From a virus: a stretch of DNA of 53,289 nt. The notes below the pieces were generated by a model. That model worked only from the letters and a program-made list of their open reading frames with translations, searched no databases and was not told where the DNA came from. The stretch is from positions 1-53,289 of the IMG/VR virus record IMGVR_UViG_3300030101_004884; one strand, 5' to 3'. The translations under genes were made by a program, and so were the position numbers. Shown piece after piece: positions 4,304 through 7,843 of this stretch (the first letter of the stretch is position 1; each line of letters starts with the position of its first letter).

Positions 4304-4411
4304 CGTTCGTCGTTCGTTCGTCGTTCGTCGTCCGTCGTTCGTTCGTCGTTCGTTCGTCGTCCGTCGTTCGTTCGTCGTTCGTCGTTCGTTCGTCGTTCGT
4401 CGTCCGTCGTT
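4304..4411. repeat. Low-complexity GTTCGTC-type tandem repeat
   Basis: About 108 bp made almost entirely of GTTC, GTC and GTCC words (for example GTTCGTTCGTCGTTCGTC), with variants containing GTCCGTC. Open frames on both strands are a by-product of the repeat: VRRSF-type on one strand, RTTNDE-type on the other. It starts just after the 4270 terminator and ends just before the sigma-54-like cluster, so a leftward transcript from that cluster would consist largely of this repeat. Confidence 0.85.
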
Positions 4412-5848: not shown

Positions 5849-5862
5849 AAAAAGAGGTAGGC

Positions 5863-6573
5863 GTGAATGAGTTGGCACTTTTTGCAGGAGCAGGCGGAGG
5901 AATCCTGGGAGGGTCATTGCTTGGATGGCGCACCCTCGCGGCTGTTGAAATTAATCCCTTTTGCAGGCGAGTCCTGCTCGCAAGACAACGAGACGGATGC
6001 TTGCCCGAGTTCCCCATCTGGGATGACGTGTCCACCTTCGATGGTCGACCATGGCGTGGATACATCGACATCATCACCGGAGGGTTCCCGTGCCAGGACA
6101 TTAGCACAGCAGGAGCAGGCGCTGGCATTTCGGGCAAAAGGTCAGGGCTCTGGTCGGAAATGGCGCGGATATGCAGCGAGATTATGCCGAGATTCATATA
6201 TGTGGAAAATAGCCCAATGCTCACAGGACGTGGACTTGACCGAGTTCTCATGGATATGGCCGCAATGGGGTATGATGCGCGATGGGGTATGTTATCCGCA
6301 GCCGATACGGGCGCACTCCATAAGCGCAAGCGCATCTGGGTTTTGGCCAACACCAACGGTTTACGGAAACCACAACAGGAAGGGCGCGAGCAAGTATTCG
6401 GGCGACGGCTTGGCGACAGCGGTTCGGAAGAATGCGGAAGTCGGTGGCCCCCTGAACCCTCAGTGGGTCGAATGGCTCATGGGGTGGCCGATAGGGTGGA
6501 CAGACTTAAGGCCCTTGGAAATGGACAGGTTCCAAGAGTGGCGGCGTCAGCATTCTTAATGTTGAAAAAATAG
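5863..6573 (+). CDS. DNA cytosine-C5 methyltransferase
   Basis: A 236-residue m5C methyltransferase that transfers a methyl group from SAM to cytosine C5 in DNA. Visible motifs: motif I FAGAGGG (residues 7-13), motif IV GGFPCQDIS with catalytic C77, motif VI VENS with E115, motif VIII HKRKRIW (about 153-159) and motif X ALGNGQVP near the C-terminus. The target-recognition region between motifs VIII and X is only about 50 residues, so specificity is probably narrow. The start is GTG at 5863, 5 nt after AGAGG. The same DNA encodes a second protein in another frame (5867-6559). It may protect phage DNA or pair with the nuclease-like protein upstream. Confidence 0.85.
   Translation: MNELALFAGAGGGILGGSLLGWRTLAAVEINPFCRRVLLARQRDGCLPEFPIWDDVSTFDGRPWRGYIDIITGGFPCQDISTAGAGAGISGKRSGLWSEMARICSEIMPRFIYVENSPMLTGRGLDRVLMDMAAMGYDARWGMLSAADTGALHKRKRIWVLANTNGLRKPQQEGREQVFGRRLGDSGSEECGSRWPPEPSVGRMAHGVADRVDRLKALGNGQVPRVAASAFLMLKK
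5867..6559 (+). CDS. Overprinted protein within the cytosine methyltransferase gene
   Basis: A 230-residue open frame in the +1 frame of the methyltransferase, covering 693 of its 711 bp. It starts at ATG 5867, four bases after the methyltransferase GTG, and both starts lie at usable distance (9 and 5 nt) from one AGAGG. The N-terminus MSWHFLQEQAEESW, the phrase CSQDNETDACPSSPSG and the C-terminal NPQWVEWLMGWPIGWTDL resemble proteins I recall being annotated in other phages, so the frame appears to be kept by selection. Function unknown; possibly a partner of the methyltransferase. It might instead be a conserved shadow of the methyltransferase sequence. Confidence 0.5.
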   Translation: MSWHFLQEQAEESWEGHCLDGAPSRLLKLIPFAGESCSQDNETDACPSSPSGMTCPPSMVDHGVDTSTSSPEGSRARTLAQQEQALAFRAKGQGSGRKWRGYAARLCRDSYMWKIAQCSQDVDLTEFSWIWPQWGMMRDGVCYPQPIRAHSISASASGFWPTPTVYGNHNRKGASKYSGDGLATAVRKNAEVGGPLNPQWVEWLMGWPIGWTDLRPLEMDRFQEWRRQHS

Positions 6574-6673: not shown

Positions 6674-7843
6674 TTAATTACAGTTCGTCGAAAAGAAGTC
6701 GAGAAGATCGTCAATCATCCAGACCGAGTATCCTAGAAAAAATATGGTTCCTCCCGTTGGTATGCCTATTTGCTCATATTCAGCAACATAATTAGGCTTA
6801 ATAACTGAATGAACAATGATACCAGAAGCAATACATGCCGACGTGGCCTCTTCAAGCGCCATGCTTTGCGCTGACTGGGGCTCTTCGTCGGTGAAGACAA
6901 GGAGATGTCTTTCTGCGTCTTGTCTCCAGGTGATTTCTGACGAGGAACAGACTTCATGGATGGCATCAATACCTGGCTCAAGGCCTCCTCCAATATTCGT
7001 AGCATTTATAATTTCTCCTTGGAATGTCGTGCCATCCACAAGGTCGGTGATAATCCTCATGGTTGCGTATCCAAATATTCTTTGTTCGTGCCTGGGTCCT
7101 GGAAAGACCGCTGCGCCGAACCGAGTTTCAGTGTCATTCATGGCTCCGGCTACGGTATGCGTTGTTGTTATTGCTTCGTTGAAAAGCGAGTCCATAGAGC
7201 CGGAACCGTCTATGATAAAAAATATGTCAATTTTATCAAAAAGATCTTCATCGATAAGGCCATCGCAATCATTGTCAAGACCGTCGCATATCTCCGTCGT
7301 CGGCGTTTTTTCGTGCAAGCACATTTCTTGAGCATTAACACAGTCTATCACCCCTGCCCTGCATTCGCCGAAAGCCAGCGTTTCAGGATTTCCAGTATAG
7401 CAAAGCTCCAAAGAAAGATTGTTGTCAACCAGACCATCGCAATCATCGTCGAGCCCATTGCAAACTTCGTCCACGCCTTCTTCTCTTCCTCTACAAACTC
7501 TTTGTCCTTCATCGCACACCTCCGTGCCAGCGTTACAAATACCTAAATTGGAACCACAGGCTTGTCCGGCCCACTCCTCGGTAAGGTTGTTATCAATTTC
7601 TCCATCGCAATCATCGTCGATCTGGTTACACAGCTCAGGGACGGGCAGTGTTTGGCCTTGGCAATTCACTACGATGTCGTTTTCATCACAAATCGTTACG
7701 CCGACCCCACAAGGTCCATTGCCTGCCGTTCCAGGGGGGCCAGCGTAACAGGGGAGATTGCAAGCCTTTGAAACCATCGCGATGTCTTCATCACATCCAG
7801 CCAAAGACAATAAAACCAATAAAGACAACACGGCTTTGTTCAT
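6674..7843 (-). CDS. Surface lipoprotein with MopE-type repeats and a von Willebrand A domain
   Basis: A 389-residue lipoprotein: signal peptide with lipobox LSLAG-C17 (residues 13-17). Three metal-binding MopE-type repeats follow (ELCNQIDDDCDGEID, EVCNGLDDDCDGLVD, EICDGLDNDCDGLID, spread over about 68-200). The C-terminal vWA domain has a MIDAS motif (DGSGSMDS), a later Thr (TNIGG) and FTDEEP. This combination is common in Myxococcota and relatives and unusual in phages. It is transcribed against the flanking genes, as cargo ('moron') genes often are. Expected location is the cell envelope, perhaps altering adhesion or phage adsorption. +2 Asp would favour inner-membrane retention under the E. 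coli rule. Confidence 0.85.
   Translation of the reverse strand: MNKAVLSLLVLLSLAGCDEDIAMVSKACNLPCYAGPPGTAGNGPCGVGVTICDENDIVVNCQGQTLPVPELCNQIDDDCDGEIDNNLTEEWAGQACGSNLGICNAGTEVCDEGQRVCRGREEGVDEVCNGLDDDCDGLVDNNLSLELCYTGNPETLAFGECRAGVIDCVNAQEMCLHEKTPTTEICDGLDNDCDGLIDEDLFDKIDIFFIIDGSGSMDSLFNEAITTTHTVAGAMNDTETRFGAAVFPGPRHEQRIFGYATMRIITDLVDGTTFQGEIINATNIGGGLEPGIDAIHEVCSSSEITWRQDAERHLLVFTDEEPQSAQSMALEEATSACIASGIIVHSVIKPNYVAEYEQIGIPTGGTIFFLGYSVWMIDDLLDFFSTNCN

Follow-up and report, generated by a model that had tools for sequence, protein, structure and literature searches.

Two overlapping frames at a viral locus as the probable catalytic and recognition subunits of one C5-cytosine DNA methyltransferase

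IMG/VR virus record IMGVR_UViG_3300030101_004884, analysed here over its full 53,289 nucleotides (the window), contains a cytosine methyltransferase gene in which two long open reading frames (ORFs) lie on the same DNA. The first, P1, extends from a GTG codon at 5863 to 6573 (+) and encodes 236 a.a.; the second, P2, is in the +1 frame relative to P1, extends from an ATG codon at 5867 to 6559 (+), encodes 230 a.a., and overlaps P1 by 97%. The first-pass annotation of the window gave these coordinates exactly, and it noted correctly that the two starts follow the same AGAGG (5853-5857) by 5 and 9 nt, a placement from which one ribosome-binding site could serve both; judged by this spacing, the site is probably common to both frames. 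As argued below from sequence comparison, the locus very likely specifies a single C5-cytosine (m5C) DNA methyltransferase made of two polypeptides, each read from one of the overlapping frames: P1 (alpha), with the catalytic domain, and P2 (beta), with the target recognition domain (TRD). The features are as follows, where AF2 is AlphaFold2 and pLDDT its predicted local distance difference test score.

5853..5857 (+): AGAGG, putative shared Shine-Dalgarno sequence, 5 nt before GTG 5863 and 9 nt before ATG 5867
5863..6573 (+): P1/alpha, predicted C5-cytosine methyltransferase catalytic subunit, GTG start (PF00145, phrog_363, HhaI, AF2, Foldseek)
5863..6357 (+): P1 catalytic core, motifs I-VIII (profile match, pLDDT, P1-frame codon periodicity)
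6376..6477 (+): P1-frame linker, residues 172-205, predicted disordered (pLDDT; little P1-frame periodicity)
6499..6567 (+): P1 motif X, DRLKALGNGQVPRVAASAFLMLK (profile match, pLDDT, P1-frame periodicity)
5867..6559 (+): P2/beta, +1-frame protein, ATG start, proposed DNA-recognition subunit (stop depletion, kept start, transversion test, phrog_1008)
5867..6166 (+): N-terminal part of P2, residues 1-100, overprinting the core; disordered in the prediction for P2 by itself
6338..6439 (+): P2 TRD with one (W)PTPT module, residues 158-191 (third-position rates; match to the TRD of single-chain methyltransferases)
6452..6508 (+): P2 motif IX, LNPQWVEWLMGWPIGWTDL, residues 196-214 (profile alignment, P2-frame periodicity, predicted helix at 198-205)

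In profile searches, P1 matches PF00145 (1.5e-29) and phrog_363 (3.7e-62), but the PF00145 match stops at residue 170 of 236, and TIGR00675 scores 65 bits, under its cut-off of 100.65. By sequence, P1 matches HhaI at 1.3e-21, and the M.HhaI match extends to motif VIII only. The AF2 model of P1 has a pLDDT of 85 overall: residues 1-165 are confident (mostly 92-98), residues 172-205 are disordered (approximately 42-57), and motif X is again confident (90-97 over the last 16 residues). A Foldseek search with this model finds HaeIII at 1.9e-15, and approximately 168 residues align to M.HaeIII and M.HhaI. Against single-chain phage methyltransferases of the Jabberwocky and Geralt kind, the P1 profile aligns with the core (4-183, E-value 7e-41) and with motif X (417-455, E-value 6.4e-6), leaving the TRD and motif IX unaligned. 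P1 therefore falls short of a single-chain C5 methyltransferase, which has motifs I-X and a TRD in one chain: it has motifs I-VIII and X, while the TRD and motif IX are missing, and the linker at 6376..6477 occupies their place. The first-pass annotation was mistaken on this point, as it credited P1 with all core motifs.

The missing parts are found in the other frame. P2 matches phrog_1008 at 7.6e-20, as do 81 of the 81 P2 relatives scanned; it has no sequence match in Pfam, NCBIfam or the PDB. Its profile aligns with residues 292-432 of the single-chain methyltransferases (E-value 4.7e-10), which comprise the PTP-rich TRD and motif IX, and the LNPQWVEWLMGWPIGWTDL segment of P2 aligns with their RLNAAFAEWMMMLPAGHV. 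The P1 and P2 matches are complementary and collinear on the single-chain enzymes, and a direct comparison of the P1 and P2 profiles gives no match, as expected. Because the C-terminal half of P2 corresponds to the very parts missing from P1, the TRD and motif IX, the two frames most likely encode two subunits of one enzyme. The first-pass proposal of a conserved, functional overlapping gene holds as regards conservation and selection, but its description of the role as undescribed does not, given what the C-terminal half is. PHROG 1008 (P2) and PHROG 363 (P1) are both labelled DNA methyltransferase, and the entries as returned make no mention of both families sharing one DNA stretch. A very improbable alternative is that P2 is a separate functional protein, for example an anti-restriction or regulatory one, that merely overlaps the methyltransferase; it would agree with the selection on P2 in its own right and with the lack of a known relative for the N-terminal half. 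Set against it are the match of the C-terminal half to exactly the parts that P1 lacks, and the fact that every P2 relative that turned up has a catalytic frame overlapping it or next to it.

P2 (5867-6559) is a conserved protein under selection, and this stretch of DNA is dual coding. Stop codons in the +1 frame were counted in 78 distinct genes whose loci had been fetched via P1 (Dcm) peptides only; loci found with P2 (L001-L080) were left out because of selection bias. The null permuted synonymous codons inside each gene, with the P1 protein and its codons held fixed. Four +1-frame stops were observed against 348 expected, and the frame is stop-free in 75 of the 78 genes, against 0.4 genes expected; in the catalytic region alone, there are 2 stops against 220. 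Frequent second-frame stops in homologous genes, named in the first-pass annotation as a result that would refute a functional P2, are thus not seen. The +2 frame is not depleted (1253 stops vs. 1040), the null is calibrated by 146 flanking genes (observed/expected 0.99 for +1 stops), and 13 single-chain methyltransferases show no +1-stop depletion under the same permutation. For the window gene alone, where approximately 4.5 +1 stops are expected, the open frame is just mildly unusual (p of approximately 0.01).

The P2 start is also kept. The first codon of P2 is ATG or GTG in 81 of 83 relatives, and in P1 the asparagine codon that contributes to it reads AAT in 75 cases and AAC in one. In 14 relatives without a P1 start at codon 1, the nearest P1-frame start lies 6-27 nt upstream; 13 of these 14 nonetheless keep the P2 ATG/GTG. 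A further test asked whether third-position transversions are avoided only where P2 would change. In two-fold boxes they are avoided at P2 third positions, with p 9e-27 for close pairs as opposed to 0.69 for the control frame; these p values are optimistic because pairs share sequences. P2 similarity at positions where P1 is identical does not serve as a frame test, since both shifted frames exceed shuffles. That same excess, together with P2 similarity that is in part forced by conserved P1 motifs (e.g., GGFPCQ), could be read to mean that P1 conservation and base composition keep the +1 frame open passively, as a by-product. This reading, to which we assign a negligible probability, is contradicted by both the stop counts and the periodicity: with P1 and its codons fixed, hundreds of stops are predicted and a handful seen, flanking genes and single-chain methyltransferases are undepleted, and periodicity tracks P2 over the TRD and motif IX.

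The constraint shifts from frame to frame along the gene, being on P1 over the core, on P2 over the TRD and motif IX, and on P1 again over motif X. In 185 pairs taken from 205 relatives, P1 periodicity holds up to approximately P1 residue 157. Over P2 residues 158-191 (TRD), the P2 third position changes at 0.569, vs. 0.289 and 0.302 at the other two positions, and over residues 192-214 (motif IX) at 0.235, vs. 0.113 and 0.103. Over residues 215-230, which overlie motif X, periodicity is back in the P1 frame. P1-frame periodicity is absent across most of the linker (6376..6477). P2-specific constraint, though weaker, is also present at P2 residues 2-59.

The main rival to two subunits is programmed frameshifting, by which a ribosome would translate P1 through motif VIII, enter the P2 frame for the TRD and motif IX, and return for motif X, yielding one chain. 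The position of the TRD and motif IX, in the +1 frame right after motif VIII, fits such a course, as do the existence of single-chain relatives and the repeated switching of arrangements in the tree. In the window layout, however, two shifts would be needed, and frameshifting leaves unexplained both the stop-free +1 frame over the whole core (2 vs. 220 expected) and the keeping of P2's own start. We therefore regard it as unlikely.

Under the two-subunit interpretation, we infer translation of P2, a heterodimer, its activity and specificity, and a biological role along the following lines. P1 and P2 would be initiated separately, 4 nt apart, at one ribosome-binding site, which would couple their amounts. 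P1 would supply the large catalytic domain (motifs I-VIII and X) for S-adenosylmethionine binding and catalysis, and P2 the small domain (TRD and motif IX), which would contact the target sequence. The heterodimer would then methylate a specific site in phage DNA, and such methylation would most simply protect that DNA from host restriction.

Several observations weigh against this interpretation. AF2 gives a poor model for P2 alone (pLDDT 58), and a PDB fold search with it came back empty; the N-terminal residues 1-100 are predicted disordered (pLDDT approximately 44-52). On the N-terminal half of P2 the selection signal is less strong, and conservation of P1 confounds part of it. The window TRD is approximately 25 residues shorter than that of the closest relative (L081), and the window copy may therefore have altered or no activity. 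Lastly, a frame is broken in a few relatives (L056, L202, L085, E. coli PCP07014), so some copies decay. For the E. coli sequence, we rejected the explanation that its 'internal stop' pseudogene call is an annotation artefact of the P1 linker, as both frames are broken in the core.

One tentative explanation of the N-terminal part, which we hold to be possible rather than probable, is that the first approximately 150 residues of P2 are a de novo overprinted segment that turned functional, e.g., by wrapping or chaperoning the enzyme core with which it shares its DNA. If so, one DNA stretch would specify an enzyme core together with a second protein that fits it. As to the TRD, alignment of window 6376-6450 with L081 2505-3269 shows one 25-residue PTP module missing from the window, with P1 96% identical where aligned. 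Among 216 relatives, the number of TP modules per beta ranges from 0 to 5, which suggests TRD evolution by gain and loss of modules.

The closest known enzyme, likened here by its published motif layout, is M.EcoHK31I, whose smaller ORF was reportedly found by Lee, Kam and Shaw in 1995 to lie inside the larger gene in another frame. M.EcoHK31I (YGGCCR) has motifs I-VIII and X on its larger subunit and motif IX on its smaller one, and its TRD is assigned, as reported, to the larger subunit (PMC3404938). The window locus is similar in that P1 has motifs I-VIII and X without IX, and motif IX lies on P2. In contrast, P2 of the window covers nearly the entire gene, its start lying 4 nt past that of P1, and selection and homology place the window TRD in the second frame: the TRD region evolves in the P2 frame, while P1 shows no constraint over that region and is predicted to be disordered in it. 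Because its TRD is not on the large subunit, the window locus is a variant, not the same enzyme type as M.EcoHK31I, and the finding suggests that the location of the M.EcoHK31I TRD is worth re-examining. M.AquI (CYCGRG), also a split C5 methyltransferase, has motif IX and a portion of the variable region on its smaller subunit, and fragment complementation is known for several enzymes (PMC3404938). In M.AquI motif X is also on the small subunit, unlike the window, where it is on P1; motifs IX and X share the small subunit, as in M.AquI, in L216, L241, L251, Shaka and Schuy. Two subunits of one enzyme, as in M.EcoHK31I and M.AquI, would be a known kind of arrangement; apparently new are the overlap of almost the whole gene, the location of the TRD in the second frame and the wide occurrence among phages.

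Two further kinds of phage gene bear comparison. Single-chain phage C5 methyltransferases (Jabberwocky gp4, Geralt gp64) have the core, PTP-rich TRD, motif IX and motif X in the same order as the window, but all in one frame and without +1-stop depletion. Bacteriophage Lily LILY_63 ('g62 internal gene') is, like P2, an internal +1 ORF in a cytosine methyltransferase gene, and has a PTP module and a motif IX-like end; unlike P2, it begins approximately 60 codons into the gene, and it is annotated as hypothetical.

Among the relatives, four arrangements occur: (i) the window type, with motif X in P1 and P2 across the whole gene; (ii) P2 beginning approximately 60 codons in (Spikelee, a Porphyromonas phage, Lily); (iii) an alpha that stops after motif VIII and a +1-frame beta that carries TRD, IX and X (L216, L241, L251, Shaka gp77/gp76, Schuy gp6/gp5, Gmala1), the Shaka and Schuy pairs each being annotated as two DNA methylases whose frames differ; and (iv) the single chain. 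The L216, L241, L251, Shaka and Schuy variants speak for the two-subunit interpretation. On a catalytic-core tree these labels cluster yet change at least 10 times, single-chain Geralt is nested among split Shaka and Schuy, and L216, L241 and L251, in which motif X has moved into the beta frame, fall on at least three branches scattered over the tree. The TRD has therefore repeatedly switched frame relative to the core, and the relatives with a single chain or a partial overlap illustrate how a domain can come to lie in a different frame.

The first-pass suggestion that P2 resembles proteins of other phages is confirmed by PHROG 1008 and by tblastn, which gives at least 597 relatives in IMG/VR, 38 phage records, 7 plasmids and 133 stretches in GTDB prokaryote genomes (80 of the 133 kept for analysis). 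Almost all of the fetched loci have both frames open at full length, with P2 starting 4 nt past the P1 start. The existence of P2 alone was considered and rejected, as the P2 relatives from the GTDB scan and the phage searches all came with a catalytic frame, either overlapping P2 or next to it. To our knowledge, long same-strand overlaps in which both products are demonstrably selected are rare in cellular and double-stranded DNA phage genomes; this one, approximately 230 codons long, is present in hundreds of viral contigs and prophages. No description of it in phages was found in the open-access literature, which is weak evidence of absence, as most subscription papers lie outside it.

In each public phage record opened from the window's clade, one frame is annotated: P2 as a hypothetical protein in Pseudomonas phage phPA-G and Vibrio phage 1.236.O, and P1 as a methyltransferase in Salmonella phage S9-5. 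Many phage methyltransferase annotations would thus denote half an enzyme, and activity tests of the annotated protein alone may therefore wrongly read as inactive.

Some loci depart from these patterns. In Leptospira plasmid pLiSL34 (L263, 1958-2703), an indel in motif IX swaps the frame ends, so that the P1 ORF gains the P2 C-terminus; this is probably a broken copy. In Lactococcus phage 4268 (L272, 1493-1999) and Mycobacterium phage Porcelain (L267, 1598-2074), which carry more distant C5 methyltransferases, a long +1 ORF over the core ends in a TRD-like LSDILE..KYFLS segment, and the overlap phenomenon may be wider than the window's clade.

Elsewhere in the window, a tandem array of CGTTCGTCGTTCGTTCGT-like units lies upstream of the methyltransferase region (4304-4411). 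Downstream, at 6674-7843 (-), a 389-a.a. protein has a lipoprotein-like N terminus, three MopE-type metal-binding motifs (PF11617, 3.1e-10) and a von Willebrand A domain (PF00092, 4.7e-10), and is an unusual cargo gene for a virus record.
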